A stretch of 64,000 nt of DNA, taken from positions 503,501 to 567,500 of the forward strand of contig NZ_JAOBPO010000001.1 of NCBI RefSeq assembly GCF_025574485.1, written 5' to 3'. Below, piece after piece: positions 46,097-62,425 of this stretch. Positions within the stretch are counted from its first letter, which is position 1; each line of letters opens with the position of its first letter. The DNA comes from Kordiimonas aquimaris (lineage in GTDB: Bacteria; Pseudomonadota; Alphaproteobacteria; Sphingomonadales; Kordiimonadaceae). The notes under the pieces were generated by a model. It was not told the DNA's origin and did not search any database. It worked only from the letters and a program-made list of their open reading frames with translations. Both the position numbers and the translations under genes were made by a program.

Positions 46097-49000
46097 TTAA
46101 GTTGCTGGTATTGCAGCTCCTGCAACCCAAGGAGCTCCCGCTTCAATCAGTCGTGCTTCAAACGCTGGCAAAGTTGTGCCCAAGAGCGTGTTAAGGCGCG
46201 TGCGCACTGCTTCAAAGTCAGCTTCAGCATAGCCAAGCACATCACGGTGCGTTTTGGTTGGGCCATATGTCGAGCTACCTGTACCGGTCAGCACTTTGCC
46301 AAGGCGGCTTTGGATCGTTTGCGGTGTTGCGCCAAAGCCTGCATTTTGCGTCCTGTTGCCGCTTAATGCTTCGTCAATTGCATACACTTCCGTACGAATT
46401 GCTTGCCATTCGTCGTCAAGACTGCTTGGTGCAGTACGAGAGCGGGTAATTGCTGTTTTCAAGTTACCAAGGCGAGTATCTAGGCCGCGCAATGAAGAAA
46501 TTGCGGCACTAACGCTGCGTTGAAGCTTTGAGGTACGTTCCCAGAAGGCAACTGCATCCGCCGGGTCTGCGCCTTTGAGTGCACCGCTCGAAAGTGGTTT
46601 CACTTCAAAGTTATCAGGGCCAGCCATAACTGTAGTTACACCGCGCACACGCTTGGAAAGCGTTACAGAATACGTACCCGGTGCAGCAAGGAAGCCTTGT
46701 GGTTCATTGCCACCAGAAACAGCTTGCTGTGATGGGTAACGTAAATCCCACGCGGCTCTGTGGAAGCCTTTTTTAGTGCTGCCCTCAATGCGGCGAACCA
46801 CATTACCGTCTGTGTCACGAACCGTGAGCCAAACTTCAGGTGCTGTTTCACGACGTTCTGACTCGACAACATCAAACCCCGGGAATGGTGTATCCTTCCC
46901 GTCTTTAATCAATGGCTTTTCGCGGTCCTGACGTTCCTGACGCGCTGTTTTCAGATCATCTTTCAGGTAATATGTGAAGTTGGCACCAAACGGCGGGTTA
47001 GGTGCGCGGTATAAGTTGTGACCTTGTGATGCACCTTCGCTAAACCCAAGTGGGTGACGTTCCACGTACCACCAGGCTGTCCGGCCACCAAACAACAGTG
47101 CTTCGTTATTGAGTGTATCTTCATCCATGTTCCTGAGAGCCGAATAGTCATCAAGGATGAAAATACCGCGCCCAAAGCTACCAGCAACCAGATCATTTTC
47201 ACGGCGCTGGATCACAACATCGCGGTAAGAAATGGTTGGTGATCCGCCTGTAAGCTCAATCCATTTTTCGCCGGCATCAGGTGTGAAAAACACACCAAAT
47301 TCTGTTGCAAGGAAGAACAGGTTACGGTCCACATGATCCTGAACAATGCGCCATACCAGGTGTTTTTCAGGCAGGTCGCTGGTCATGGATTTCCATGTGC
47401 GGCCGCGGTTGGTACTTTTGAGCAAATATGGTTTGTAGTCGCCGTATTTGTGGTTGTCGAGTGCGACGTAAACAGTATCTGCATCAAAAAGATCAGCGCG
47501 GATGTCGTTTACAAACGCGGTGTCCGGTACGCCCGGCATGTCACCTACTTCAACTTTGCGCCAAGTTGCGCCGCCGTCTGCCGTGATTTGTACAAGGCCG
47601 TCATCGGTTCCTACATACAGGATATTTTCATCAAGTGGCGACTCGCCTACGGACGTAATGCTGTTGTAGTTGGACATAGCGAGCAGGTCCCAGCCTGCTT
47701 CCCATGACCATTGACGCCCCATAACAGGCAGCTTCATCCGGTCTTGGTTGCGTGTTAGGTCTGGTGAGATAGCTGTCCAGCTATCGCCGCGGTCGTCAGA
47801 ACGCCACAGGCGCTGCGATGCATGGTAGATACGTTTAGGGTCGTGACGGCTAACGTATATAGGCGCATCCCAGTTAAACCGCTCTGCAGGCTCCCCCGGT
47901 TTTGGCTGAGGCTGAATATGCACAACCTCACCGTTAGTGCGGTCAGCTCTTACCAAGTTACCTTGTTGCCAGTGCGAATAAATAATGTCCGGGTTACCGG
48001 GTTCTGTTGCTGGTTGGTGACCATCAGCAAATAGCGTGATGAACCAATCTGAGTTTTGAATCCCGTGCCTGTTATTTGTCCGTGAAGGTGCGCCTTGCGT
48101 GGAGTTATCCTGCGTACCACCGTAAATGTAATAAAACGGCGCAGCGTCATCGACGGCTACTTTATAGAACTGTGTAATCGGCAGATTTGAAATATAACGC
48201 CAGCTAGCTTCGCCGTCGTGGCTTTCATATATACCACCATCGGAACCAACCATTATATAATCAGGGTCAGTGGGGTGAAATGCAATCGCATGATCGTCCA
48301 CATGCTTGTATTCTTGCTTAAGAACACGCCATGTAGCCCCGCCGTCGTCCGACACTTGTGTGCGGTTGTTTGCAAGGTAAATCTGGTCAAACTTATGTGG
48401 GTTAGCGAACAGTTCCTGATAATAATGTGGTCCTGTACCACCTGATATCATATCAGACATTTTGGTCCAGCTAGCACCGCGATCGCTACTACGCCACACA
48501 CCGCCCGTGCGTTGATCAAGTTCGATTGCCGCATATAAAACATCAGGGTTTTGCGGTGAAATTGCCATACCGGTTTTACCGAGGTTTCCTTTAGGCAGGC
48601 CAGTTGTCAGTTTGGTCCATGTTTCACCGCCATCATCTGACATGTGAAGGCCGCTTTCAGGGCCAGCACCAACATAGGCTGCAACTGTGCGCTGGCGCTG
48701 CCATGTTGCTGCGTATAAGCGGTCAGGGTTGCGCGGATCGATAATCATATCGGTCACGCCTGTCCATTCATCAGCAGACAGTTTGTTTTCCCACGTTTTA
48801 CCGCCATCGGTAGACTTGAACACGCCGCGCTCGCCGCCGCTTGACCACAATGGTCCTTGAGACGCTACCCAGATTGTGTTTGGGTCTTCAGGGTGCACGA
48901 TAATTTCAGAGATATGTTCGGACTTTGATAGGCCCATGTTTGTCCATGTTTTACCGCCATCCGGTGAACGATAAACACCATCACCGAAACTGATGTGGCG

Positions 49001-49351
49001 ACCGCCGTCGTTCTCACCTGTACCTACCCATATGACATTTTTGTTCGATGGGTCGATAGTAACAGTGCCGATGGAATATACGCTTTCGCCGTCGAACAGA
49101 GGCGTCCATGTTGTTCCTGCATTTTCTGTTTTCCAGACGCCACCGGACGCAACACCAACATACCATGTGGCCGGATCTGTCTGGTCAATCTCGATGTCGG
49201 CAATGCGGCCAGACATGAAAGAGGGTCCAATATTTCTAAGCGCCATACCTTTGAAGGTGTCGCTTGTCATTAAATCTTTGTCGTCCGAGGACTGCGCATA
49301 TGTAGCCTGCGACACCATAAGTGCTGCGCCCAAAATGGCCGTGAATTTCAT
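46097..49351 (-). CDS. exported sortilin-like BNR beta-propeller protein
   Basis: A 1084-residue exported protein from the ATG at 49351 (AAAGGAAG upstream; signal peptide ends at TYAQ). An in-frame ATG at 49423 would precede the signal peptide and is less likely. Two large propellers are built from BNR/Asp-box repeats such as DGGKTW, DDGGETW, SDRGASW, DDGGATW, SDDRGDSW, DGGATW and TNRGRTW. A C-terminal beta and helical part begins near residue 720. Relatives are VPS10/sortilin-type or glycosyl-hydrolase-annotated proteins, often near peptidases; catalytic function is unproven. Divergent from the M14 gene. Confidence 0.88.
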   Translation of the reverse strand: MKFTAILGAALMVSQATYAQSSDDKDLMTSDTFKGMALRNIGPSFMSGRIADIEIDQTDPATWYVGVASGGVWKTENAGTTWTPLFDGESVYSIGTVTIDPSNKNVIWVGTGENDGGRHISFGDGVYRSPDGGKTWTNMGLSKSEHISEIIVHPEDPNTIWVASQGPLWSSGGERGVFKSTDGGKTWENKLSADEWTGVTDMIIDPRNPDRLYAATWQRQRTVAAYVGAGPESGLHMSDDGGETWTKLTTGLPKGNLGKTGMAISPQNPDVLYAAIELDQRTGGVWRSSDRGASWTKMSDMISGGTGPHYYQELFANPHKFDQIYLANNRTQVSDDGGATWRVLKQEYKHVDDHAIAFHPTDPDYIMVGSDGGIYESHDGEASWRYISNLPITQFYKVAVDDAAPFYYIYGGTQDNSTQGAPSRTNNRHGIQNSDWFITLFADGHQPATEPGNPDIIYSHWQQGNLVRADRTNGEVVHIQPQPKPGEPAERFNWDAPIYVSRHDPKRIYHASQRLWRSDDRGDSWTAISPDLTRNQDRMKLPVMGRQWSWEAGWDLLAMSNYNSITSVGESPLDENILYVGTDDGLVQITADGGATWRKVEVGDMPGVPDTAFVNDIRADLFDADTVYVALDNHKYGDYKPYLLKSTNRGRTWKSMTSDLPEKHLVWRIVQDHVDRNLFFLATEFGVFFTPDAGEKWIELTGGSPTISYRDVVIQRRENDLVAGSFGRGIFILDDYSALRNMDEDTLNNEALLFGGRTAWWYVERHPLGFSEGASQGHNLYRAPNPPFGANFTYYLKDDLKTARQERQDREKPLIKDGKDTPFPGFDVVESERRETAPEVWLTVRDTDGNVVRRIEGSTKKGFHRAAWDLRYPSQQAVSGGNEPQGFLAAPGTYSVTLSKRVRGVTTVMAGPDNFEVKPLSSGALKGADPADAVAFWERTSKLQRSVSAAISSLRGLDTRLGNLKTAITRSRTAPSSLDDEWQAIRTEVYAIDEALSGNRTQNAGFGATPQTIQSRLGKVLTGTGSSTYGPTKTHRDVLGYAEADFEAVRTRLNTLLGTTLPAFEARLIEAGAPWVAGAAIPAT

Positions 49352-49422
49352 CGTTCGCTTCCTTTGTCTAAACGTCAAATTATCAGGGGTTTTGGTCACA
49401 TGATCATCTATACTTGCCATCA

Positions 49423-49458
49423 AAACGTTCAGCCAAACGTTTCATTAAACGATAGAAA
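49423..49458. repeat. three direct AAACG repeats with 12-bp spacing
   Basis: AAACGTTCAGCC, AAACGTTTCATT and AAACGATAGAAA follow one another exactly, so AAACG recurs at 49423, 49435 and 49447. The array lies in the divergent promoter region, 72 bases before the BNR start. It contains the palindrome AAACGTTT at 49435-49442. A tandem operator is plausible. Confidence 0.45.
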
Positions 49459-49644
49459 ATAAAGATTATTGTACGCTCCCCCATATCAAGCCTGATTAGC
49501 TTTGCACAATCACTGTTTGCTGACAACAATTCTTGGAAAATGAAGGCTATAATATGAGCGAAGGCATACTATGGTTTAGATTCAAGCTTTTCACGGGCCT
49601 GCCTTTCCTCTACGTTTGATGAAATCAAAAGAGGGAGGGGTCTT

Positions 49645-52461
49645 ATGAGTTATAAAATGAAACTGCGTATGCTGGCAGGTGCATCTTTACTGGTCAGTAG
49701 TTTATCGATGCAAATGGTATTTGCCGATGAGAGCACGATGCCAGCATCTGTTGGTGGATTACCGGTTGATAAAGTATCAAGCGAGGCAATTCGCGCGGCA
49801 ACCACTGAAGAACGGTTTATGAATGATTGGGTGTCTGTTATCCCTGATCATCCCACTATACCCAGTCCGCGGGATTTCTTGGGTCATATTGCAGGTGCAC
49901 CTGGCGAGATGACTAATGTCGCCGAAATTCACGCCTATATGCGCGCCATCGCTGATGCAACAGACCGCGCCGAGATTGTTAGCCTTGGTCAGACGGCTGA
50001 AGGTCGCGAGATGATCGCGATCATTATTGCTGACCCTGAAACGCTTACTAACCTTGATGATTATAAAGCACGGCTGAATGCGCTCGCTGATCCGCGGGGT
50101 ATGAGCGATGCAGATGCTGAAGCAACTATCGATGCCGCGAAACCAATATATTGGATTACGGCTGGTTTGCACTCTACGGAATACGGCCCACCTGAAACGG
50201 CGCTTGAAATTGCATACCGGGTGGCGGCAGAAGACCGCGAATTGTTTAAAGATATTCGCAGCAACGTCATTACGATGATTACGCCTGTATTTGAGGTGGA
50301 TGGTCGCAACCGTTCAACAGAATGGTTTCTCAAGCATAATAAAGGCCGCACAGACTATTATGACCGGCCACCGAGTGGTCCGCCTTTCTGGGGTAAATAT
50401 ACATTCCATGACAATAACCGGGATGGTATTGGTTTGACGCAGCCCATGACCAAAAACTTCTTGCGCGGGTTCAATGAATACAAGCCAACCTTGTCGCTCG
50501 ATCTGCATGAAAGTGTGCCGTATTTGTATGTGGCAACAGGTACTGGCCCGTATAACCCGGGCGTTAGTGCAACAACAGTTACGGAGTGGGCATCTATTGC
50601 CAACTATGAAGTTAACCGCCTGACAACAATGGGCATGCCCGGTGTGTGGACATGGGGGTTCTACACAGGTTGGTGGCCCGGATATATGCTTTGGGTGACC
50701 AACAATCGTAACTCAAACGGTCGTTTCTATGAGACGTTTGGTAATGGTGGTTCAGAGACAATGCTGCGCGATCTCGGCGACAGTCGGTTTGCCGGGGATA
50801 AAACTACAGATAAAACATGGTATCGCCCAAGCCCGCCGTCCGAAGAAACACTTTGGTCCATGCGCAACAATGTGAACTTTATGTCGAGCGGTGTATACGC
50901 ATCTCTTGAGTATGCATCTAAAAATGCGCAGCAACTGGTTGCCGGTTTTTATAGTAAATCGAAAGCATCAATTGCTGAAGGTGCTTCGGGTGATGTGAAG
51001 GCTATCCTTATTCCCAACGATCAACGTGATAGCGGCGCAGCGCGTGAACTTATCGACCTTGTTATGGAACAGGGCATAGAGGTTAGTATCGCGGGTGCTG
51101 ACGGTGAGTTTGGTGATGTTGAAATTGAGCGAGGTGATGCCTTGATCAAGCTCAACCAGCCTTACGGGCCGTTTGCTAAAGCCTTATTTGAAGAGCAGGA
51201 ATTTCCTGAAGATGTTGATGTGCCACCATACGACGATGTTGCATGGACGCTGGGTTTAATGCGCGGTGTTGATGTCGAGTTTGTGGAAGACGTTGATGTG
51301 CTGGAATTGAAGTCAAGTAAAGCAGATAGCGGTGCCGCGTTTTATGAAGCGGAAGACTTGCCTGGACGCTCCAGATATTATGCTGTAGCACACAGAGGTC
51401 AAGAAGGCCTCGGTGAGCTCCGCTTTGCTTTAGCAAGTGCGACAATGCATGCCGCGAAGGCTGAAGTGAAGTCAGGCAGAAATATCTTCCCTGCGGGCAG
51501 TATCTTTATTGATGCTTCAACCGTTGATAAGGATGCGCTGGAACGTGTCGTGGAAAACACACTTCTTGATGTTGTTGGTTTGAACAGCTTGCCAAAAGGC
51601 GAAATGATTGAGCTGGATGTGCCGCGCATCGGTTTATTGCATAGCTGGATTTCAACACAGGATCCAGGTTGGGTCCGTTACACATTTGATCAATCACAGG
51701 TGCCGTACAGCATCATTGAAAAAGCTGAACTTAAAGCAGGCAATTTGCTGGCCAAATATGATGTGATTGTTGCACCAAGCTTTGGTAGACGCGGTAGCTT
51801 AAAGGCGCTTGTGAACGGTGTGGATAAAAAATGGTCACCGCTAGCATATGAAACAACACCTGAAACGCCAAGCCATGGCCGTATTGTTAGCTCACCGGAT
51901 GTTACTGGCGGGTTTGGCTTTGACGGTATGGCTGCGCTTCAATCGTTTATCAGTGAAGGAGGGACTTTCATTGGCCTTGCTTCAGGCGGTAGTTTGGTTG
52001 CCGAAAGCGGGATCACATCTGATGTAAGCATGAACCGCCCGCGTGTTAATACGCCGGGTTCGTTTGTACGTCTGCAAATCAACGATACTACGTCACCGCT
52101 TACATTCGGGTACGACGAAATTTCGTATGCATTCCGTGGTAACACACCGTTTTATAGTGTCGGTAAAGATGACCGCGACCTCATGGTGGCACAGTTTGGT
52201 AGCAAGAAAGCTAGTGTGCGTCCGTGGAAGCGTGGGGAATCTGACGGTGATAAGAAGAAGAGCAAAAGTGGCCCGCTTATTCTTTCCGGTGGAGTATTAA
52301 GCGGCAAGAAACAGCTTAACGGTGCACCGGCCATTATCGAAACGACTGTCGGTGAAGGTCAGGCTATTCTGTTTGGCTGGAACCCTTTGCACCGGCACCT
52401 TAATCACCATGACCATGCATTTGTTTATAATGCGTTGATGTTCTGGAATGATTTGAAATAA
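49645..52461 (+). CDS. exported M14-family zinc carboxypeptidase
   Basis: A 938-residue exported metallopeptidase (signal peptide 1-27, cut after FA). The zinc site is HSTE (His176, Glu179) plus His288 in SLDLHES, the HxxE...H pattern of M14. The catalytic domain covers about residues 85-430. The remainder is a large C-terminal region with a class I glutamine-amidotransferase-like feel near 715-800 (SFISEGGTFIGLASGG) and FGWNPLHRHLNHHDHAF at the end. The ribosome site is GGGAGGGG. It ends with a strong terminator and probably digests peptides in the periplasm. Confidence 0.92.
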   Translation: MSYKMKLRMLAGASLLVSSLSMQMVFADESTMPASVGGLPVDKVSSEAIRAATTEERFMNDWVSVIPDHPTIPSPRDFLGHIAGAPGEMTNVAEIHAYMRAIADATDRAEIVSLGQTAEGREMIAIIIADPETLTNLDDYKARLNALADPRGMSDADAEATIDAAKPIYWITAGLHSTEYGPPETALEIAYRVAAEDRELFKDIRSNVITMITPVFEVDGRNRSTEWFLKHNKGRTDYYDRPPSGPPFWGKYTFHDNNRDGIGLTQPMTKNFLRGFNEYKPTLSLDLHESVPYLYVATGTGPYNPGVSATTVTEWASIANYEVNRLTTMGMPGVWTWGFYTGWWPGYMLWVTNNRNSNGRFYETFGNGGSETMLRDLGDSRFAGDKTTDKTWYRPSPPSEETLWSMRNNVNFMSSGVYASLEYASKNAQQLVAGFYSKSKASIAEGASGDVKAILIPNDQRDSGAARELIDLVMEQGIEVSIAGADGEFGDVEIERGDALIKLNQPYGPFAKALFEEQEFPEDVDVPPYDDVAWTLGLMRGVDVEFVEDVDVLELKSSKADSGAAFYEAEDLPGRSRYYAVAHRGQEGLGELRFALASATMHAAKAEVKSGRNIFPAGSIFIDASTVDKDALERVVENTLLDVVGLNSLPKGEMIELDVPRIGLLHSWISTQDPGWVRYTFDQSQVPYSIIEKAELKAGNLLAKYDVIVAPSFGRRGSLKALVNGVDKKWSPLAYETTPETPSHGRIVSSPDVTGGFGFDGMAALQSFISEGGTFIGLASGGSLVAESGITSDVSMNRPRVNTPGSFVRLQINDTTSPLTFGYDEISYAFRGNTPFYSVGKDDRDLMVAQFGSKKASVRPWKRGESDGDKKKSKSGPLILSGGVLSGKKQLNGAPAIIETTVGEGQAILFGWNPLHRHLNHHDHAFVYNALMFWNDLK

Positions 52462-52466
52462 TGCTG

Positions 52467-52494
52467 AAAAGGGTCGCTGCGGCGACCCTTTTTT
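52467..52494 (+). terminator. rho-independent terminator of the M14 gene
   Basis: AAAAGGGTCGC, loop TGCG, then GCGACCCTTTTTT. Seven G+C-rich pairs extend into A-T pairs; it starts five bases after the stop. Confidence 0.93.
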
Positions 52495-52582
52495 CTGCGT
52501 GTGATTTTTAATCAACGATGCTTGCCAGTTGCTTCTGTCACCCTAGTTCACATCTTAATTAATTACGTAAGGGGAGCACGGA

Positions 52583-53263
52583 ATGGAATATGATGACGTT
52601 ATCATGGGGCGGCGCAGTACGCGTGGTTTCTTGAAAAAGCCAGTACCTAAAGACGTCATCAAAGAGGTGATTGGCCTCGCCATGAGAGCACCATCTTCCT
52701 TTAATACTCAGCCTTGGAACATGACGGTAGTAACCGGCGATGCGCTTGATGAAATCCGCAAGGGTAATGTAGAGCGGAATGTTGGCGGCGTGCCTCATTC
52801 ACGCGAAATACGTGTTCGTCATTCATATGACGACGGCGATCATCGCACACGGCAGATTGAAGTTGCCAAACAATTGTTCGGCGTGATGGGTATTGAACGG
52901 CACGACAAAGAAGGTCGGCATGACTGGGTGTTGCGCGGCTTTCGCCAATTTGATGCGCCTGTTTCGATCGTTATTACTTATGATCGTTCGGTTCACGGAG
53001 ATGATGTGGCGCCGTTTGATTGCGGTGGTCTGTCAAATGCCATTGTTAATGCAGCATGGTCACGCGGCCTTGGTTGTGTGATCAATAGTCAGGGTATTAT
53101 GCAAACGCCTGTCGTACGTGAGCATGCGAAAGTTGATGAAGATCAGGTCATTATGATCTGTATCGCCATGGGATATCCAGACGAAAGTTTTCCTGCAAAT
53201 GCAGTTGTAACAAACCGTAAGTCAATTGAAGATGCTGTTACATTTGTTGGTTTTGACGATTAA
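52583..53263 (+). CDS. nitroreductase family protein
   Basis: A 226-residue FMN-dependent nitroreductase. The N-terminal flavin motif is RRSTRGFLKKPV, followed by AMRAPSSFNTQPWNM, both typical. The C-terminal segment SRGLGCVINSQGIM contacts the cofactor in the dimer. It is cytosolic, with AGGGGAG as ribosome site. The substrate (nitro compound, quinone or flavin) cannot be told. It lies between terminators and the multidomain lipoprotein gene, 113 bases upstream of the latter. Confidence 0.92.
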   Translation: MEYDDVIMGRRSTRGFLKKPVPKDVIKEVIGLAMRAPSSFNTQPWNMTVVTGDALDEIRKGNVERNVGGVPHSREIRVRHSYDDGDHRTRQIEVAKQLFGVMGIERHDKEGRHDWVLRGFRQFDAPVSIVITYDRSVHGDDVAPFDCGGLSNAIVNAAWSRGLGCVINSQGIMQTPVVREHAKVDEDQVIMICIAMGYPDESFPANAVVTNRKSIEDAVTFVGFDD

Positions 53264-53376
53264 GAATTTTTGCGCTTACGCTTAATTGAGAGCATCTTTT
53301 TGATAATATTGTCACTTGCGTGTACACAAGATGAAAACTAGGGTTTGCTATATATAAAGTTTAAAGGAAATAGGTC

Positions 53377-55422
53377 ATGCGGTTATTGGCGGTAATGTTG
53401 GCGGCGACACTGGCCGCGTGTAGTAGTGAAACGAACACGGATCAGCAAACAAGCGCAGATGCACAATCTTCAATTGAGGATAGTGCGGCTCAACAGGTTG
53501 CCTATGATACCTCGAGCATTAACCCTAATGACTATGTCGATAATTTTACGTTGCTGGACCATAAAGGTCGCTCGCATGAGCTGTATTATTATAGTGATGC
53601 GCCAGCGATTGTTCTCATGATTCAGGGAAATGGTTGCCCGATCGTGCGCAATGCATGGTCAGATTATCAAGCTGTGCGCGACCAGTTTTTGGGCCAGGGT
53701 GTTCAGTTTTATATGTTGAATGCAAATCGTCAGGATAGCCGCGCCAAGCTTAACGGCGAAGCAGAAGACTTTGGCTATGATATGCCGATCTTGAAAGATG
53801 AAACACAGCTTGTTGCCGAAGCGCTCGGTGTTAAGCGAACAGCTGAGGTGTTGGTTATCTCGCCAGATGATTGGAGCATCGTTTACCGCGGGCCTGTTAA
53901 TGACCGTATTGGATACGGTCAACAGCGCAGTACTGCCGGAGAGAATTATCTTGCAGATGCATTATCAGCAACGCTTGCCGGTGAGGCAGTTGAGAAACGT
54001 ATTCGTGCCTCAAAAGGCTGTATCGTTAACCTGCCGGAGGCGGCGAAGCGTGCTGAGCATGCACAGATTAGTTATAGTGAAACGATCGCCCCGATGCTTG
54101 CTGAAAACTGCGCAAGCTGTCATGAAGAAGGTGGTATTGGCCCCTGGGCTATGACGGACTATAGCATGATCGAAGGTTTTGCGCCGATGATCCGAGAGGT
54201 TGTTCGCACAAAACGGATGCCGCCGTGGTCCGCAGACCCTCATATTGGTAAATTCTCTAATGGTCGTGGTTTAACCACTGAAGAAAAACGAACACTAGTG
54301 CACTGGATCGAGGCTGGAGCGCCACGCGGTGAAGGCTCTGATCCGCTTGCGGAGCGACAAACTGCGGCAACAGAATGGCCGCTTGGCGAGCCGGATCTGA
54401 TTATTGAAGCACCAGGTTTCGATGTGCCGCGTTCAGGTGTTGTGGATTACCAGTTTCCGACAGTTCTAAACCCGCTTGATAAAGATGTTTGGGTGCGTGC
54501 AGTTACTGTTGTTCCGGGCGACAAAACAGTTGTGCATCATGCGCTTGTGGGGTCATCCGAAGAGGTTACCAAGCCTGGTGAGGGTAACTATGACGATGTT
54601 TTTGATAACTATCTGATTGGCTTTGTACCAGGTGCGGAGAGTTATATTTATCCGGAAGGTACGGGTGTTGAAGTGAAGGCTGGCGGCGAGTTTCGCTTCC
54701 AGATGCACTATACGCCTTCTGGCCGAGAAACAACGGATCGAACAAAGTTAGGTTTGTATTTCTACAAAGATGCGCCGGATTATAAGCTGCGCCAACAAGT
54801 TGCACTTAATCCACGCCTTGGTATTCCAGCGAATGAGGCGTCGCATTATGAGCAAGCATATTTTGAGTTTGATAACCCTGCAACTATCTACATGCTTTTC
54901 CCGCATGCACACTTTAGGGGTACAGCCTCACAATTTGATGTGGAATATCCTGATGGCAGGTCTGAAACCATATTGTCTGTGCCGAAGTATGATTTTAACT
55001 GGCAGCATACATATAGCCTTGAAGAGCCGCTCGAAGTGCCTGCCGGAGCGCGCCTGATTCACCGTACAGCTTATGATAATACTGGCAGAAACCTAGCCAA
55101 CCCTGATCCTGATAGAGTTGTGCCGTGGGGCCTGCAGTCAAGTGATGAAATGCTTTATGGTAGCTTTATGTTCCGCTGGACAGAAGAGACGGCTGATAAT
55201 CCTGTTCATGATCCGTTGCAGTTTGGCGTGCGGCAGTTCTATGGGTTTGCAGACAAAGATATGGACGGTAAGCTGGCTCGGTCCGAGATGAGCGGTGGCC
55301 TTGCAAAGTCTTGGGATGCCGGGCGATTAAAGAATGTTGACAGAGACGGTGACGGCGCACTTTCTTTCGCTGAATTTTACGGTATGCGCCGCGCTCAGAT
55401 GCAACGCCAACAATCGCGTTAA
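53377..55422 (+). CDS. lipoprotein: redoxin + cytochrome c + PHM/DBM-like copper monooxygenase + EF-hands
   Basis: A 681-residue lipoprotein (lipobox LAAC, Cys15). Residues 45-200 form a thioredoxin/peroxiredoxin-like domain with a single Cys87 (GNGCPIV). Residues 235-320 are a cytochrome c-like domain with haem motif CASCH (245-249) and a downstream RMPPW. Residues 335-605 match the dicopper monooxygenase fold of peptidylglycine and dopamine hydroxylases, with all expected ligands in order: His387-His388, His444 (FQMHYT), His510 and His512 (FPHAHFRG), and Met592 (DEMLYGSF). Two EF-hands follow (DKDMDGKLARSE 627-638, DRDGDGALSFAE 655-666). The substrate is unknown; the haem may feed electrons to copper (inference). 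The cyclase gene follows after 27 bases. Confidence 0.88.
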   Translation: MRLLAVMLAATLAACSSETNTDQQTSADAQSSIEDSAAQQVAYDTSSINPNDYVDNFTLLDHKGRSHELYYYSDAPAIVLMIQGNGCPIVRNAWSDYQAVRDQFLGQGVQFYMLNANRQDSRAKLNGEAEDFGYDMPILKDETQLVAEALGVKRTAEVLVISPDDWSIVYRGPVNDRIGYGQQRSTAGENYLADALSATLAGEAVEKRIRASKGCIVNLPEAAKRAEHAQISYSETIAPMLAENCASCHEEGGIGPWAMTDYSMIEGFAPMIREVVRTKRMPPWSADPHIGKFSNGRGLTTEEKRTLVHWIEAGAPRGEGSDPLAERQTAATEWPLGEPDLIIEAPGFDVPRSGVVDYQFPTVLNPLDKDVWVRAVTVVPGDKTVVHHALVGSSEEVTKPGEGNYDDVFDNYLIGFVPGAESYIYPEGTGVEVKAGGEFRFQMHYTPSGRETTDRTKLGLYFYKDAPDYKLRQQVALNPRLGIPANEASHYEQAYFEFDNPATIYMLFPHAHFRGTASQFDVEYPDGRSETILSVPKYDFNWQHTYSLEEPLEVPAGARLIHRTAYDNTGRNLANPDPDRVVPWGLQSSDEMLYGSFMFRWTEETADNPVHDPLQFGVRQFYGFADKDMDGKLARSEMSGGLAKSWDAGRLKNVDRDGDGALSFAEFYGMRRAQMQRQQSR

Positions 55423-55449
55423 AGCAAACAACATATAGGAGTGCCGACC

Positions 55450-56370
55450 ATGAAATTACCAAACAGATACTGGTTAATGGGAGCGGCGCTCTTTGGTGGC
55501 ATCAGCGTCAATGTCGCTCAAGCGCAAACCGATTACGGCGAAGGCGACACGATAGGTGCTGCGAATAACCTGAGCGCTGAAGGTGTGCAGGCAGCATCAA
55601 AACTTGTAAAAACAGGAAAGACTTATTCTTTGGGCATTGTTACCGGCCCTGATACACCTGCGTGGGGAACCCGCTGGTATAAAATGGGTATTTTTGATTT
55701 AGGCCCATATGGCAACAATAAGCTGACAGGGCACGATGATCTTTTGATGACATACCTTGGGATTGGGTCACAAATTGATGGCCTTGGTCATATTGGCGTT
55801 GATGGTGTTTTTTATGGTGGTCACACGTCAGCAGATATAAAAACACAAGCAGGCTTAACCAAGCTTGGTACAGAGAATATCCCGCCTATTGTCACGCGCG
55901 GTGTACTACTTGATATGGCAAAACACTTTGGCCAATCTGTTCTCAAAGAGGGCACAGTTTTTAATAATAAAGAGATTAAAGCAGCAGCTGAAGCGCAAGG
56001 TATTGTAATTAAGCGCGGCGATGTTGTGTTGTTTCATACAGGCTGGCTCAGTATCATGGAAGATGACCCTGAGCGCTTCAAAACTGTAGGTCCAGGTTTG
56101 GGTGTTGAAGGTGCGCAGTATTTGGCTGACCTTGGTGTTGTTGCTGTTGGTGCAGACTCGCCGAGCGTGGAAGTTGTTCCTGCCGAAAATGGTTCAATGG
56201 CATTTCCGGTTCATGCTGTCCTTATTCCGAAAAACGGTGTTTATATTTTGGAGAACATGAACACCGGGCCGCTTGCAGCGGATGATGCTCACGAGTTTAT
56301 GTTTGTGCTGGGACAGCCCAAGTTTGAAGGGTCCGTGCAAGCGGTGATTAACCCAATTGCAATCCGTTAA
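55450..56370 (+). CDS. exported cyclase-family (kynurenine formamidase-like) hydrolase
   Basis: A 306-residue protein of the cyclase / KynB-like metal hydrolase family with signal peptide (1-25, cut after AQA). The family's metal motif region reads IGSQIDGLGHIGVDG, a variant of HxGTHxDxPxH with Gln replacing the usual His in GTHxD. RGVLLDMAK, RGDVVLFHTGW and VGADSPSVE follow as in the family. The start at 55450 is set by AGGAG nine bases upstream. It is 27 bases behind the copper-monooxygenase lipoprotein, so the two probably share a transcript and perhaps a pathway. Confidence 0.88.
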   Translation: MKLPNRYWLMGAALFGGISVNVAQAQTDYGEGDTIGAANNLSAEGVQAASKLVKTGKTYSLGIVTGPDTPAWGTRWYKMGIFDLGPYGNNKLTGHDDLLMTYLGIGSQIDGLGHIGVDGVFYGGHTSADIKTQAGLTKLGTENIPPIVTRGVLLDMAKHFGQSVLKEGTVFNNKEIKAAAEAQGIVIKRGDVVLFHTGWLSIMEDDPERFKTVGPGLGVEGAQYLADLGVVAVGADSPSVEVVPAENGSMAFPVHAVLIPKNGVYILENMNTGPLAADDAHEFMFVLGQPKFEGSVQAVINPIAIR

Positions 56371-56404
56371 TGTAGGGCCATTTCCTACGGCTAGAAGATA
56401 ACTG

Positions 56405-56431
56405 GAGCACAACTCTTTGCAGTGTGTGCTC
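56405..56431. terminator. hairpin between convergent cyclase and M20 genes
   Basis: GAGCACA pairs with TGTGCTC around a 13-base loop, midway between the two convergent stops. No strong T-run on either side; a weak bidirectional terminator is the best guess. Confidence 0.4.
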
Positions 56432-56454
56432 ACAGTATCTGTTTGATTAACCAG

Positions 56455-58077
56455 TTACTTTTTGGGTTCTAACTGAGGATAGTTTACGCCAAGCTGTTCA
56501 AGATATGTGTCGTACTTGGATGGATCATAGTAGAACGGCTTAAGTCTGTCTTTGAACTGTGCCATGATGGCTTGATTTTTCTCAATGGCGGGCTTGTCTT
56601 CCGGTCCAATAAACGGCTTGTACTCAATATCTTTTGACTGTTCTTCGCGGAAGTAAGTCCAGGCATCTTCAAGCAACTGTGGCTGTGTGATCAAGTCCAT
56701 CATGGTTGCTGCTAATACCTTCGCTCCAGCGGCTGCACCTTTGTGTGCAATCGGCGTTGCCATGGCCATTGCTGAGGACCAGTGATGGCCAATTGTGCCA
56801 TTAATGTTGGAGGGGTAGCGAAGTGTTACTGTCGGTACGTTCCATGATACATCACCAATATCATCTGAACCACCGCTGATTGGTTTTTCCGGCGGGCCTT
56901 GTAATTCTTCCAGTTCGGTTGGCATGCCTTCTTCTTCAAGGTTTTCTGCTTCCATCAGCTTTTGTACAGCACGCGCATATATCTGGTCGTCTTCGGACCA
57001 TTCAGGAAGGCCGATAGCTTGAATGTTGCTGTACATGCGCTCAGCGATAACTTTGTTAAAGTGTCGTGGCCACGCGGAGCCAATAATGCGGCGCTTCACT
57101 GTGGTGCCTGTCATCATTGCAGCGCCTTCTGCAATCTGTTGCAAAGACGCAAAATTGTCTTGAATATGCTTTGCGGTAATTTCACGAATGAAATACCAAA
57201 CACTTGCTTTGGAAGGCACGACGTTGGGTTGGTCGCCACCATCAACCACCACATAGTGTGATCGCTGTAATGGCCGCAGATGTTCACGTTTAAAGTTCCA
57301 TGCGATGTTCATTAATTCGACAGCATCAAGAGCGCTTTTACCGCGCCACGGGTCGCCTGCTGCGTGCGCGGCTATACCATCAAACTGATACTCGACAGAC
57401 ACAAGGCCCGTGCCGCGGTCACCGCCCCATGATGTAGAAAGATTGCGACCCACATGTGTGAACATAACGGCGTCCACATCCTTAAAGCGACCATCACGAG
57501 CATAGTATGCTTTGGCCGCGACAAGTTCTTCAGCAATGCCGGGCCAGATCATGATTGTGCCAGGCAGGTTTTCACGTTCCATGATTTCTTTAACAGCGAG
57601 CGCGGCGGCAACGGTAACGGCGTGCCCTGAATTGTGTCCTTCGCCGTGTCCCGGTGCTCCTTCTACCATAGGCTGACGGTAGGCAACGCCAGGCATTTGT
57701 GAAGATTTTGGAATGCCATCAACGTCGGAGCCCAGCGCGATAACAGGTTTGCCACTACCCCATTTAGCCCACCAACCTGATGGCAGACCTGAAATATCCT
57801 GTTCAACGCTGAAGCCTTCTTTTTCTAGAAGGTTGGTCATGTATTTTTGCGTCTCAAACTCCTGAAAACCAAGTTCGGAGAACGAAAACAGGCTATCGAT
57901 AATTTCTTGAATTTGTTTTTTATGGTTATCAATATTCGCTGCGGCTTGTGCCGACAACCCGGACAATACAGGCGCTGGTTCTTCCGGTTTTTCTTGCGCA
58001 GCAACAAACGGTGCTGATGCGCACATTAAAGCAAATGCTGTCGCACGGTATAAACTGGTAGATTTAACTTTCTTCAT
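56455..58077 (-). CDS. exported M20-family amidohydrolase
   Basis: A 540-residue M20 (AbgB/aminobenzoyl-glutamate-type) amidohydrolase with signal peptide (about 1-26, cut after VAA). The metal-binding segments are ALGSDVDGIP and GHGEGHNSGHAVTVAAALA; GGSDDIGDVSWNVPTV is the C-terminal metal region. Family members remove amino acids from N-acyl amides or dipeptides. The start at 58077 has GGGGAGGG nine bases upstream; the frame is open to 58092. Its leader contains a set of interleaved inverted repeats that overlap the ribosome site (see 58083-58160). Divergent from the TPR gene. Confidence 0.9.
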   Translation of the reverse strand: MKKVKSTSLYRATAFALMCASAPFVAAQEKPEEPAPVLSGLSAQAAANIDNHKKQIQEIIDSLFSFSELGFQEFETQKYMTNLLEKEGFSVEQDISGLPSGWWAKWGSGKPVIALGSDVDGIPKSSQMPGVAYRQPMVEGAPGHGEGHNSGHAVTVAAALAVKEIMERENLPGTIMIWPGIAEELVAAKAYYARDGRFKDVDAVMFTHVGRNLSTSWGGDRGTGLVSVEYQFDGIAAHAAGDPWRGKSALDAVELMNIAWNFKREHLRPLQRSHYVVVDGGDQPNVVPSKASVWYFIREITAKHIQDNFASLQQIAEGAAMMTGTTVKRRIIGSAWPRHFNKVIAERMYSNIQAIGLPEWSEDDQIYARAVQKLMEAENLEEEGMPTELEELQGPPEKPISGGSDDIGDVSWNVPTVTLRYPSNINGTIGHHWSSAMAMATPIAHKGAAAGAKVLAATMMDLITQPQLLEDAWTYFREEQSKDIEYKPFIGPEDKPAIEKNQAIMAQFKDRLKPFYYDPSKYDTYLEQLGVNYPQLEPKK

Positions 58078-58082
58078 GATGA

Positions 58083-58160
58083 CCCTCCCCAAGGTTTTGG
58101 CAAATCTACTTCAAGTTTTGGTATTGGGGAACCCAATAATAAAACCTTGGGCAGTAGATT
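58083..58160 (-). promoter_or_regulatory. possible pseudoknot leader over the M20 ribosome site
   Basis: In the minus-strand transcript the order is AATCTACT (58160-58153), CCCAAGGTTTT (58151-58141), a hairpin TATTGGG-ttc-CCCAATA (58138-58122), AGTAGATT (58110-58103), AAAACCTTGGG (58098-58088), then the ribosome site GGGGAGGG (58090-58083). The first and fourth segments pair perfectly (8 bp), the second and fifth pair perfectly (11 bp), and the pairs interleave. They can form a pseudoknot or two exclusive folds, and the last arm shares bases with the ribosome site. It resembles a translational switch; it matches no riboswitch class I can name. A DNA operator is the alternative. Confidence 0.5.
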
Positions 58161-58232
58161 ATAAAACAGAAGAGGTCTTGGTTATCGGGTTATGTAATGT
58201 TATTTTGTTACTAAGTTGGATAGGAAGATAAT

Positions 58233-59198
58233 ATGCTGTCGCTGATATTAGGGCTTTTGATTGTTTCGACACCGCTTGATTGTTCGCAGAGTCACGCGGC
58301 AAAAAGCATTATTCAAAAAACATATTATAGTGGGCAATTGGCACAAGCGATTGATCAGGCAGAGAGTATTCTTGCGTGCAAAAATACTAATGTTGATCAA
58401 AAAGTTGAGCTGCATTTGCAGCTGGCGGCAATTAATGATCGCATCGGACTGCACCAGAATACACGGCCTGTTGCTGCTAGTCTGGATCATATCAATAAAG
58501 CCGCTTTATTAAGCAGCATGGCAAATGAGCATTCTCAAGCAGCTGTTTTACTTGCGCGGGCAAAATACTTTTACCGCGCCGAGATGGTAGAACGAAAATT
58601 TCCGCAAGCGGAGAGGTATGGTGAGCAGGCCCTTGCAGTATATACAGCGCTTGATAATGTATATGGTCAAGCCGATGCTACCCATGCATTAGGGCTTGTA
58701 TTTTTTCAACGCCGTGAGCTTGAGAAAGCACGTATCTATTTTGATCGCTCCCTTGAATTAGAAAACCGAAGTGGTAATGCACGAGCTGTTATGCTTGCGG
58801 ATTATGGGCGGCATGTAGGTTTTATTCATTTGATTTCTGAGCAAGTGGGTGCAGCAGTTCCCTTTTTCGAGCAGTCCTTAATGCACCGTAGAACAGGTGG
58901 TTTAACTGACGCGGCTATGTTCGCAGCTATAACACTTGCATCAGCGTATGCGGATCAGGGAAATATACCGAGTGCAAAAGAAACAGTTGCGTTTGCTCTA
59001 GATGTGGCAGAGGAAATTAACTCACCAAACGGGTTAGTACGCGTTCTCTTTGTAGAAGCTAAGATTTCCGAAGTGGAAGGAAATAAGGAAGCCGCAATGA
59101 AGGCTTATGGTCGTGCGCGGAAAACGGCTATGTCTATTGACCTTGCGGGCTCGGTGGCTCGCGCCGAAGAGGCAATTAAACGCTTGAGTGACAATTAA
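58233..59198 (+). CDS. TPR-repeat protein with signal-like N-terminus
   Basis: A 321-residue all-helical protein with about six tetratricopeptide-like repeats (ADATHALGLVFFQRRELEKA, then ARIYFDRSLELENRSGNARA and AAMKAYGRARKTA). The N-terminus MLSLILGLLIVSTPLDC is hydrophobic and could be a signal peptide with a lipobox-like Cys, although the residues before it do not fit a good lipobox. AGGAAG precedes the ATG. It resembles sensor or scaffold TPR proteins; partner unknown. Divergent from the M20 gene and convergent with the hydrolase. Confidence 0.75.
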   Translation: MLSLILGLLIVSTPLDCSQSHAAKSIIQKTYYSGQLAQAIDQAESILACKNTNVDQKVELHLQLAAINDRIGLHQNTRPVAASLDHINKAALLSSMANEHSQAAVLLARAKYFYRAEMVERKFPQAERYGEQALAVYTALDNVYGQADATHALGLVFFQRRELEKARIYFDRSLELENRSGNARAVMLADYGRHVGFIHLISEQVGAAVPFFEQSLMHRRTGGLTDAAMFAAITLASAYADQGNIPSAKETVAFALDVAEEINSPNGLVRVLFVEAKISEVEGNKEAAMKAYGRARKTAMSIDLAGSVARAEEAIKRLSDN

Positions 59199-59202
59199 TA
59201 GC

Positions 59203-60099
59203 TTACTTGCAATGCGCGCCCATCCAGCTTGAAACATGTTTCATTAACCCAATGCGGTGGCTTGAAAATGAATGCCCGGCATCAAATGTCACATGCTCGA
59301 AATGTGCAGCCTTGGCTTTTTGAGCAGCCTCTGCAATAGGAACCTGTGTTTCCATTGGCAAGACGGTGTCTTGCAGTCCTGAAATTAAGAGTAAAGGCCT
59401 ACTTTTATAGGCGCCCATGCGCGGTACAAAATCAAAGCGCGCTTTATCTGCTAGAATTTGGCGGACTAGGTCAGCATATGAATAATTTTTAAGGCCAGGT
59501 ACAAAAGTGTCTGGTAATGCATCCAAATCGGTTATCTGCGCTGCGCGCGGGTAAGAGTTTGCTGGTGCTAGAGCAACAGTACATTGTATCTGCGGGTTCT
59601 CGATGCTGGCAACAAGTGCTGTGAAACCACCAAGGCTGTGACCAATCAGGCTAATACGGTTTGGATCAATGCGGTTTTTGCCAGCACGCCCTTCGTCTTC
59701 CAAATATTTCACTGCCGCTGCTGCATCCTCAATCAGATGAGTGGCGCTATATTCTCCTTCGCTACCCCATGCGCCACGGTAATGAAAATATAATGTATTG
59801 AAGCCTGCGCGCCGCATGGTTTGTGCAAGGTCCAGATTTTTTTCATTGCCGGGAAAACCGTGCAGGAAGACAATAGTGGGATGCGGCCCTGCACCGTTTG
59901 CCACATACAGGTGTCCGTTCATCATATAGCCATCGCTCTCAATTTGCAGTTCAACAACATGCGGTGGATTTTCTGGATCAACGACAGGGTCTTGTGTCAC
60001 GGGGTCATAATCTGCCGCGTGTGCGCTTAATGAGAAAACAATAAATAAGAATGCGATAGAAACTGAAAGTTGATGCACGATAAATCCCCTGCGGTGCAT
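59203..60099 (-). CDS. exported alpha/beta hydrolase
   Basis: A 298-residue alpha/beta hydrolase with signal peptide (about 1-28, cut after AHA). The oxyanion strand is PTIVFLHGFPGNEKNLD, the nucleophile elbow GHSLGGF, the acid ISGLQDTVLPM and the catalytic His DAGHSFSSHR. Substrate unknown; the dienelactone/acyl-peptidase side of the family is likely. I take the ATG at 60099; the frame is open to 60123 and overlaps the divergent penicillin-acylase frame there. It ends four bases from the TPR stop. Confidence 0.88.
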   Translation of the reverse strand: MHRRGFIVHQLSVSIAFLFIVFSLSAHAADYDPVTQDPVVDPENPPHVVELQIESDGYMMNGHLYVANGAGPHPTIVFLHGFPGNEKNLDLAQTMRRAGFNTLYFHYRGAWGSEGEYSATHLIEDAAAAVKYLEDEGRAGKNRIDPNRISLIGHSLGGFTALVASIENPQIQCTVALAPANSYPRAAQITDLDALPDTFVPGLKNYSYADLVRQILADKARFDFVPRMGAYKSRPLLLISGLQDTVLPMETQVPIAEAAQKAKAAHFEHVTFDAGHSFSSHRIGLMKHVSSWMGAHCK

Positions 60100-60238
60100 G
60101 ATTGCTTTCTTGCACACTAACACGGCTTTTTGGCAATCGTCACGTATGTATCATGCATGCACAGGTTCTTCGTTTGATAATACACTCAGAAAGGTTAGTG
60201 TAGCGAGTGGGAATAGCCTTTGTGGTGGGGAGCTTGGG

Positions 60239-62425
60239 ATGAAGTGTTTTGCTAAAGTTTTATTCGGCCTGACAGCAATGGCTTTGCTTGCCGCATGCAG
60301 CGCCGAACAAACTGTGTCGGATGATCCGGCAAAAAACGTAACGATTTACCGTGATACATACGGTGTACCTCATATTTATGGCAGGACAGACGGTGACGCT
60401 GCGTTTGGTATGGCATACGCACAAGCTGAGGATAATTTTGCTCAGCTAGAGCTTAATTTTATTCTGGCATCGGGGCGTTCGGCTGAAGTGTTTGGTGAAG
60501 AAGCGGTGTTATCTGATTGGATCGCACGCTCACTAGAGATAGAGAGATTGTCACGCCGGGATTATGAAACGGCGATACCTTCCACGAAAGCATTATTGGA
60601 TGGTTACGCTGCGGGTCTTAATTATTTTTTGGCACAAAACCCTGATGTGAAGCCGCGGCTTTTCACAAAGTTTGAACCTTGGTATCCGCTCGCTCTTATT
60701 CGCCGTATGTATTATATGGGTGGTTTTCTGGGGCGCCTTGATTTCACAAACGAAGAGCGCCGCGCTGCTTTTGAAGCCATTAACGGGTCAGCGTTGACTA
60801 CTGTTCAAACTCAAATACCACAAACTGATACAGAACTTGCTAATGCTTTTGGTTCAAATTCCTGGGCGGCGAATGGCCCCAAGATTGAGGGCACAGGTTC
60901 TTATCTATTCATCAATCCTCACTTGCCGTCTTTTGGTATGGGGCAGGTTTATGAAGCGCATGTTATTTCCGATGAAGGTTGGAATTTCACGGGCTATAGC
61001 AGGTTTGGTTTTCCGCTCCCTTATGTTGGGTTTGGTGAAAATCTGGGGTGGGCCAGTACGGATAATAACGGTGACCAGGAAGACGCGTGGATTGAGCATT
61101 TTGGCGAAAGTGAAAATCCGCTTGCCTATCGCTATGATGGCGATTTCCGGATAGCCAGCGAGTGGAGCGATGAAATTAAGGTGCGGGATGCTGCACCGGT
61201 ACCTGTAAAGTTTCGTAAAACACACCACGGCCCTGTGCTTGCTATGCGGGACGGTCAATTGTTATCAGCACGATTTGCAACATTTGATGAACCGGGCTGG
61301 CTGGATCAGTGGCACGCTATGTCACGTGCGCAAAACTTTGATGAATTTAAAGCCGCGGTGACACCACTTAAAATGCAATTTGGCAACTATATGTACGCGG
61401 ATCGGGACGGCCATATTTACTATGTTTATAATGGCGCCTTTCCTAAAAAAGATGCGTCATTTGATTGGAACAATCCTGTCGATGGCAGCAACCCTGCGAC
61501 CGAATGGCAGGGGTATCATTCGCTTGAGGAAATACCACAAGTGTTAGACGCCGTGTCGCATTTTGTGCAAAACACAAACACCACCCCGTTTATGACCAGC
61601 ATGAGTGCAAGCGACCCTAGAGAGGAAGGTTTTCCGCCCTATATGGTGCGTGAAAGCGACAACGCACGCAGCCGCAATGCACGGCGTATCTTGCAGGGTA
61701 TTGAGCGGTTTGATTTTGCAACATGGGAGCGAGAAAGCTTCGACACGACCATGATGTCGTGGCAGCCTCACAAACTTGTCCTGCTTGGTGCTTACGAGGC
61801 CGTTAACTTCACTGACCATGCGCGCGGCGAAGCATTGGCGCCAATCATTGATGTTTTGGTCGGCTGGGACGGTGTAGCTCGCATGGATGAAAATGCACCC
61901 ACACTCTATGTGGACTGGTACGAGGAGTGTCGTAAGCGAGGATTATTATCCGAGCAACAACCAGAAGAAATAATTACCGCACTGGAGACAGTGGTTGCCC
62001 GATTGCAGTCTGACTGGGGTGATTGGCGTGTGTCATGGGGTGATATTAATCGTGCTCAAAGACCAGCTGTTGACAGCAAGGGTGTACCGCAGTTTTGTGA
62101 TGATTGCGAAAGCCTTGCAACACCAGGTGTGCCGCATTGGTCCGGCGGCAGTCTTATTAGCGGTAATACGCGTTTACCTGACCTGAAGAAGCGTTACAAA
62201 CGTGGTGGTAATTCCTACACGGCAATTATTGATTTTCCGCGTGATCGCAGTAAGAGAATTGTTTCACGGTCCGTGCATGTATTCGGCGCAAGTGTTGATG
62301 CAAATTCACAGCACCACATGGATCAGGCCGCTCTTCTCGCGCAGAAGCAATATAAACCAGCATGGCTATACCTGGATGATGTGAAAAAGCATGCAGTGCG
62401 TGCGTACCATCCAGGTGAAGAATAA
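60239..62425 (+). CDS. penicillin acylase family lipoprotein
   Basis: A 728-residue Ntn-hydrolase of the penicillin / acyl-homoserine-lactone acylase family. It begins with a lipobox (LAAC, Cys20), so it should be membrane-tethered in the periplasm. Self-cleavage is expected before Ser206 in FGSNSWAANG, which becomes the N-terminal nucleophile of the beta chain. The alpha chain covers about 25-190. The HHG at KFRKTHHGPVLA is usual. It cleaves amide-linked acyl groups such as penicillins, homoserine lactones or N-acyl amino acids; specificity cannot be read. The start at 60239 follows GGGGAG; the frame is open to 60098. Confidence 0.92.
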   Translation: MKCFAKVLFGLTAMALLAACSAEQTVSDDPAKNVTIYRDTYGVPHIYGRTDGDAAFGMAYAQAEDNFAQLELNFILASGRSAEVFGEEAVLSDWIARSLEIERLSRRDYETAIPSTKALLDGYAAGLNYFLAQNPDVKPRLFTKFEPWYPLALIRRMYYMGGFLGRLDFTNEERRAAFEAINGSALTTVQTQIPQTDTELANAFGSNSWAANGPKIEGTGSYLFINPHLPSFGMGQVYEAHVISDEGWNFTGYSRFGFPLPYVGFGENLGWASTDNNGDQEDAWIEHFGESENPLAYRYDGDFRIASEWSDEIKVRDAAPVPVKFRKTHHGPVLAMRDGQLLSARFATFDEPGWLDQWHAMSRAQNFDEFKAAVTPLKMQFGNYMYADRDGHIYYVYNGAFPKKDASFDWNNPVDGSNPATEWQGYHSLEEIPQVLDAVSHFVQNTNTTPFMTSMSASDPREEGFPPYMVRESDNARSRNARRILQGIERFDFATWERESFDTTMMSWQPHKLVLLGAYEAVNFTDHARGEALAPIIDVLVGWDGVARMDENAPTLYVDWYEECRKRGLLSEQQPEEIITALETVVARLQSDWGDWRVSWGDINRAQRPAVDSKGVPQFCDDCESLATPGVPHWSGGSLISGNTRLPDLKKRYKRGGNSYTAIIDFPRDRSKRIVSRSVHVFGASVDANSQHHMDQAALLAQKQYKPAWLYLDDVKKHAVRAYHPGEE

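Follow-up and report, generated by a model that had tools for sequence, protein, structure and literature searches.

How is a copper site of the peptidylglycine hydroxylase (PHM) type supplied with electrons in a bacterium, and which of the domains attached to it does it need? PHM and dopamine hydroxylase (DBH) are textbook animal enzymes that are fed by ascorbate and make amidated peptides and noradrenaline. The question is raised by one open reading frame in a 64,000-nucleotide stretch of the Kordiimonas aquimaris genome (contig NZ_JAOBPO010000001.1, positions 503,501 to 567,500), hereafter the window. Its features, all on the plus strand, are as follows.

53377..55422, +, ORF of 681 residues with a lipoprotein signal, redoxin domain, haem c, PHM-type dicopper domain and two EF-hand loops (ORF reading)
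53377..53421, +, signal sequence with lipobox LAAC and putative lipidation of Cys15 (sequence)
53530..54033, +, thioredoxin-like (redoxin) domain, residues 52–219 (Pfam AhpC-TSA, 3.2e-12; PDB 2ywi, 3u5r and 2cvb by sequence and fold)
53635..53637, +, Cys87 in GCPIV (sequence, family alignment)
54019..54021, +, Cys215 in KGCIV, the second conserved redoxin cysteine (family and homologue alignments)
54058..54336, +, cytochrome c domain, residues 228–320 (Pfam Cytochrome_CBB3, 7.7e-4, below cut-off)
54109..54123, +, haem attachment motif CASCH, residues 245–249 (CxxCH in 90/90 distinct genes)
54217..54219, +, Met281 in RMPPW, probable axial haem ligand (90/90 distinct genes)
54364..55194, +, PHM/DBH-type dicopper monooxygenase domain, residues 330–606 (fold search, profiles, model)
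54535..54540, +, His387-His388, CuH ligands (aligned with HH of rat PHM)
54706..54708, +, His444, third CuH ligand (aligned with the QxHY His of rat PHM)
54904..54912, +, His510-Ala-His512, CuM ligands (aligned with HTH of rat PHM)
55150..55152, +, Met592, CuM ligand (aligned with the Met of DEMC in rat PHM)
55252..55287, +, EF-hand loop 1, residues 626–637 (pattern match)
55339..55374, +, EF-hand loop 2, residues 655–666 (pattern match; Pfam EF-hand_1, 8.1e-5, below cut-off)

The initial annotation had placed this frame and its coordinates correctly, and the residues that it named are all in position (C15, C87, CASCH 245–249, HH 387–388, H444, HAH 510–512 and M592). The ATG is preceded by AAAGGA, a ribosome-binding-like sequence, and similar N-termini occur in nine of the ten alphaproteobacterial relatives L001–L010, the start of L008 being unsure. 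The gene is present in a single copy in the 3.8 Mb host genome. Pfam models above their cut-offs on the 681-residue protein are AhpC-TSA (3.2e-12) and Redoxin (2.1e-6), and Cu2_monoox_C, Cytochrome_CBB3 and EF-hand_1 score below theirs. The haem motif together with the six-ligand copper pattern, at the spacing of the window protein, did not occur in any of 20,000 shuffles of the same protein. AlphaFold2 modeling of the whole protein with 35 sequences gave a pLDDT of 79.5 and a pTM of 0.66.

Two profiles were used to place the copper domain, A3 covering the haem-PHM part and A2 the PHM domain alone. Profile A3 matched rat PHM at E = 2.8e-12 and DBH at 2.5e-9, and paired the family motifs HH, QxHY, HxH and EM with His107/108, His172, His242/244 and Met314 of PHM, the copper ligands named in PMC6123673. 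Profile A2 matched human DBH only (8.1e-6), with the HH, H and HxH ligands aligned. The haem-PHM part modeled with 90 alignment rows reached a pLDDT of 90.6 and a pTM of 0.87, which suggests one well-defined unit. Foldseek searches with the whole-protein model were led by rat PHM and human DBH (3mll, E = 5.2e-16), and those with the haem-PHM model by 3mll (5.3e-15) and 4zel (2.2e-14); these top matches identify the predicted fold of this part as that of PHM/DBH. TM-scores normalized to PHM are moderate, 0.53–0.67 over the PHM rows with rmsd values of 3.8–8.7 Å, and refer to predicted models. The Cu2_monoox_C score of the window protein is 19.6 bits against a cut-off of 23, and Cu2_monooxygen did not match; among the 90 rows of A3, 64 matched the former model and five the latter at E = 0.01. 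The sub-threshold scores are read as a limit of the Pfam models and not of the fold. Five residues, W542, Q543, N568, N572 and E591, are near-invariant and may mark the family's own active-site surroundings. The PHM/DBH-type domain that the initial annotation had recognized from its ligand order is thus borne out, the six ligands lying in order and the sequence profile agreeing with the predicted fold. Neither of the two findings that it had named as refuting was encountered, since relatives retain the ligands and the predicted fold, compared as a whole, is the PHM one. The protein is a member of the PHM/DBH superfamily by predicted fold and six ligands, and binding of two coppers and hydroxylation with O2 are predicted.

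A genome-contig scan returned 34 relatives, and alignments of 35, 63 and 92 rows were made in succession. The 63-row alignment excluded the duplicates L083 and L084 and used L030 trimmed to its last 620 residues. The 92-row alignment excluded the duplicate places L083, L084, L120, L135, L142 and L147, as well as L017 (near-identical to L016), L025 (contig end), L143 (run of N), L146, L148 and L152. It includes the identical pairs L052/L154 and L088/L153 and so represents 90 distinct genes. Spacings and residue counts were taken over 91 rows, and A3 has 90 rows with the L088/L153 pair, or 89 distinct genes. Haem and copper motifs are present in the excluded L148, both L152 ORFs and the L146 ORF at 1459; the L146 ORF at 2702 has the copper motifs and is cut before the haem, the L146 ORF at 2 has CxxCH and is cut before the copper motifs, and L143 lacks only the Met region, where its N run lies.

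The cytochrome domain has the two features of a c-type cytochrome, a CxxCH motif (CASCH) and an axial methionine (M281). Met281, in an MPPW motif, is a conserved haem methionine that had been missing from the list in the initial annotation. CxxCH and the haem methionine were found in 35/35 rows, 63/63 rows and 90/90 distinct genes of the successive alignments, and homologues also keep the copper ligands, the full set of six being complete in 89 of the 90. Cytochrome_CBB3 matches 75/90 rows of A3 at E = 0.01. The distance from the haem His to Met281 is 32–38 residues over the 91 rows and that from Met281 to H387 is 101–120, with the window protein at the median of both (32 and 106). This near-constant haem-copper spacing indicates that the two domains travel as one unit. 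The host genome encodes CcmE (E = 7.8e-32), which alone was taken as the haem-maturation marker and makes covalent haem attachment in the periplasm plausible.

The association of haem and copper also held when the PHM domain alone was the query. This search gave 43 ORFs from Acidobacteriota, Gemmatimonadota and G295 loci, a mainly acidobacterial set with some duplicates and no planctomycete, and CxxCH was detected upstream in 41 of them by script. The other two are the L151 ORF at 2995, which has CATCH on reading, and the L146 ORF at 2702, which is cut by the end of the locus. Thirty gemmatimonad ORFs found in the same way include 27 with CxxCH and two with CX4CH (L174 and L175, by eye); L177 has complete copper ligands and no haem motif upstream. 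A paralogue in L151 (8858–10234) keeps the haem motif and H444 and has lost the other five copper ligands. These two cases show that the haem and copper parts can separate. The acidobacterial locus L151 (G337:C225, 984–10234) carries five consecutive haem-PHM ORFs, the last being the degenerate copy. L152 (G338:C7, 302–5481) has a pair of gemmatimonad haem-PHM genes interleaved with two ORFs of ~350 residues; a Pfam scan of the first of these ORFs returned no match.

The redoxin domain had been described as having a single cysteine. This is wrong: Cys215 is conserved together with Cys87 in 44 of 45 redoxin-bearing distinct genes, and its counterpart in the structures 2ywi, 3u5r (SMc02350) and 2cvb is the cysteine of a C-terminal GC; all three homologues have both cysteines. 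The homologues share the CP motif and the C-terminal GC with the window redoxin; they stand alone, unlike the fused domain here, and their entry titles name no function. The exception is the second copy in the alphaproteobacterial genome G295 (L155), which has neither redoxin cysteine and a complete set of haem and copper ligands. Peroxiredoxins carry the motif PxxxTxxC at the peroxidatic cysteine, and assignment to that class was rejected because the motif, read by eye, is absent around Cys87 (VLMIQGNGC87). The redoxin also occurs on its own in many bacteria (Pseudomonadota genome scan), and the 14 records from a plasmid search all match the redoxin part only. Four features in other loci bear on its role.

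L155, 6142-8553, −, redoxin domain without both cysteines, haem and copper ligands complete
L127, 500-1129, separate redoxin ORF (CP and GC motifs), immediately upstream of the haem-PHM ORF (acidobacterial)
L129, 419-1120, separate redoxin ORF with the same motifs and position (acidobacterial)
L132, 2796-3479, separate redoxin ORF with the same motifs and position (acidobacterial)

Half of the distinct genes (45 of 90) carry a fused redoxin, and the other 45 do not. The detection script flagged 47 rows, and L028 and L030, whose family matches start at profile positions 181 and 178 and which the redoxin profile missed, were discounted. With these two false flags set aside, 36/37 acidobacterial and 5/5 gemmatimonad aligned genes have no fused redoxin; L160 is the one redoxin-fused ORF among 30 further gemmatimonad ORFs. 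Forty of the 43 ORFs in the mainly acidobacterial set are without a fused redoxin, and within the available locus DNA a separate one was found in only three of those loci, L127, L129 and L132. In L119, the haem-PHM ORF comes immediately after a separate redoxin ORF, from which a stop divides it. The occurrence of the redoxin as a fused or neighboring module argues for a functional link to haem-PHM, and the redoxin-free members and L155 indicate that the redoxin is not necessary in every member. The initial annotation had suggested that the redoxin could be part of the oxygenase; the link to the haem-PHM unit survives (fusion in half of the genes, upstream ORFs in three acidobacterial loci), and the notion of a needed part does not, given the 45 genes without it and the loss of both cysteines in L155. 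So the haem-copper unit is the conserved core of a large bacterial family, with the redoxin as a recurrent, non-universal partner.

The 34 relatives come from Alphaproteobacteria, Planctomycetota, Acidobacteriota and Gemmatimonadota plus a few others, among them one actinobacterial and one cyanobacterial MAG. A full-length gene was found in 9/40 sampled close-relative genomes, the host included; counting partial matches raises this to 14/40, and in the five additional genomes only the redoxin part matches. Among the matches listed for 299 Pseudomonadota genomes, the copper domain is reached in G000, G295 (twice) and G133. Matches occur in 33/99 Planctomycetota genomes at 1e-30 (G431 to the redoxin part only), in 15/80 Acidobacteriota genomes with up to 29 per genome, some of which are two pieces of one gene, and in 19/61 Gemmatimonadota genomes with up to 15 per genome. 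In a midpoint-rooted tree of the 63 rows, the alphaproteobacterial proteins and L052 form one clade (support 100/99), and its sisters are L108 and L111 from the planctomycete phylum, in a 14-row clade also supported at 100/99. Gene transfer between the alphaproteobacterial and planctomycete phyla, in one direction or the other, is likely from this topology.

The gene neighborhood was examined for the substrate. The next ORF, a putative cyclase (PF04199) on the same strand, lies 18 nt past the stop (27 nt if its ATG is taken as the start). When nine window genes were compared with the 34 contig loci, several of which are short, neighbors matched only in L001, L002 and L004. The region 46097–62425 of the window is a run of predicted secreted or hydrolytic genes around the haem-PHM lipoprotein gene; it includes BNR/sortilin-like, M14 carboxypeptidase, M20-type amidohydrolase and putative cyclase genes and, by eye only, alpha/beta hydrolase and penicillin-acylase-like genes. 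Pfam matches of selected alphaproteobacterial neighbors include S9 peptidase, Lon, a LysR regulator, FAD oxidoreductase, 2-hydroxyacid dehydrogenase and PP-loop, among others. Operon logic was rejected as a guide to the substrate, the neighbors having no common theme and being conserved in close relatives only.

A gene for an MMPL/RND-type transporter lies directly downstream on the same strand in ten planctomycete-group loci (L011, L012, L015, L016–L018, L022 and L100–L102, with near-identical pairs L016/L017 and L101/L102). The MMPL similarity begins at most 139 nt past the stop, and the ten loci do not form one supported clade in the 63-row tree. The pairing was found in 0/20 other planctomycete-type loci, of which L013 ends 84 bases past the gene and L105 ends with it; in L014, near the ten loci in the tree, a MoeA gene follows instead. 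The host genome has no clear orthologue of the planctomycete MMPL protein, six matches there having 23–25% identity, two of them in one frame. The pairing suggests a hydrophobic or exported substrate in that planctomycete group only.

The reading that we prefer, with a probability of about 0.6, is that the window gene encodes a dicopper monooxygenase of the PHM/DBH type, tethered by a lipid and facing the periplasm, that would receive its electrons via the covalently fused cytochrome c. Retention of the fused c haem in 90/90 distinct genes fits cytochrome-fed electrons. The haem would be reduced in one-electron steps, by the respiratory chain or by a donor in the periplasm, and would pass the electrons to CuH and then to CuM, where O2 would be bound and the substrate hydroxylated, the haem standing in for the ascorbate used by the animal enzymes. 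The Cys87/Cys215 pair perhaps keeps copper or a thiol reduced, or handles peroxide from uncoupled turnover. The term self-contained, which the initial annotation had suggested for this oxygenase, is too strong because the haem would be a relay for electrons and not their source.

The first alternative concerns the electron source: rat PHM draws single electrons from ascorbate (PMC6123673). The bacterial domain might likewise run on ascorbate or another small reductant, with the haem as a redox or oxygen sensor or a structural cap; a Met-ligated haem suits electron transfer, yet the sequence leaves the direction of flow unfixed. A spare haem should, however, be lost often, and it is found in every distinct gene at near-constant spacing, so this arrangement is unlikely. 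The substrate could also be that of the animal enzyme. A strict peptidylglycine alpha-hydroxylase acting on glycine-extended peptides would share the fold and copper ligands seen here, and M14 and M20-type genes in the window and S9 peptidase genes near the L003 and L005 genes would suit it, but these peptidase-type neighbors are conserved in close relatives only. The PHM residues that we take to bind the substrate carboxylate, Arg240, Asn316 and Tyr318, align with F508, Y594 and S596, and the latter two positions are not conserved in the family (Asn in 4/91 rows, Tyr in 26/91). A partner PAL lyase was sought in the host genome as an NHL-repeat match at E = 0.01 and none was found. Peptide amidation was set aside on these two grounds, the replaced carboxylate residues and the missing NHL match; the substrate is probably not a peptidyl-glycine, and strict peptidylglycine hydroxylase activity is very unlikely.

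If instead the redoxin did the work, whether by reducing peroxides or disulfides or by carrying copper as a chaperone, and the remaining domains served to bind metals, then conservation of Cys87 and Cys215 in 44/45 genes, the separate upstream ORFs in L127, L129 and L132, and the occurrence of the redoxin alone in many bacteria would all be expected. The lack of a fused redoxin in 45/90 distinct genes and in 40/43 mainly acidobacterial ORFs, the intact haem and copper ligands of L155 after loss of both cysteines, and the position of Cys87 outside the peroxiredoxin motif PxxxTxxC (by eye) speak against such a thiol-redox protein, which we consider highly improbable. Least credible is a non-catalytic copper-binding or copper-storage lipoprotein: the degenerate L151 paralogue shows that the fold can persist without its ligands, but the ligand set, including the HxH/Met site, is complete in 89/90 distinct genes across phyla. 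Extending the cytochrome-fed monooxygenase to all relatives gives a more tentative picture, held at somewhat below even odds. It would be a large bacterial family of dicopper monooxygenases that need no ascorbate, the PHM-type site being wired to the respiratory chain by a cytochrome c within the same protein. Some Acidobacteriota and Gemmatimonadota would have expanded it to twelve or more copies, many members would work with a redoxin that has two cysteines, and in one planctomycete group the pairing with an MMPL/RND-type exporter would point to a hydrophobic or exported substrate.

The C-terminal region is variable. The two EF-hands proposed for the window protein are present, and loops 626–637 and 655–666 both follow the 12-residue DxDxDG pattern ending in E. 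The strict pattern occurs twice in the window protein and L001–L003, once in L004–L010, and once or twice in most planctomycete members tested, with none in L013, L023 and L105. Several acidobacterial members have TPR-like C-terminal repeats in place of EF-hands (by eye). The probable role of the EF-hands is to bind Ca2+, which would stabilize the protein or help to attach it.

Rat PHM (PDB 1opm, 1phm and 3mll) has the same fold with two copper sites and the six ligands in order. The window protein differs in being bacterial, in its N-terminal haem c and redoxin, its EF-hands and its putative lipid anchor, in having no cysteine within residues 330–606, and in not conserving the substrate-carboxylate residues. 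Human DBH (4zel) shares the fold (E = 2.2e-14) and the HH, H and HxH ligands; its chain is not known to carry a haem or a redoxin. The cytochrome c-PHM proteins of Planctomycetota, Acidobacteriota and Gemmatimonadota have the same haem-PHM core and ligands, although, unlike the window protein, nearly all of the acidobacterial and gemmatimonad ones (36/37 and 5/5) are without a fused redoxin. PHM and DBH are well known. Among the open-licence papers listed in literature searches, in several cases a small part of those matched, no description of a bacterial cytochrome c-PHM fusion was recognized by title or abstract opening; most subscription papers lie outside that body of work. The account of PAM evolution by Attenborough et al. 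(2012) may mention bacterial PHM-like genes.

If the proposal is true, this bacterial family would represent another way to power PHM/DBH chemistry, via a fused haem. The fusion would make electron entry and the crossing between the distant coppers testable by spectroscopy, with the haem as a built-in optical reporter, and the copies that lack only the redoxin cysteines or only the copper ligands would serve as natural controls.
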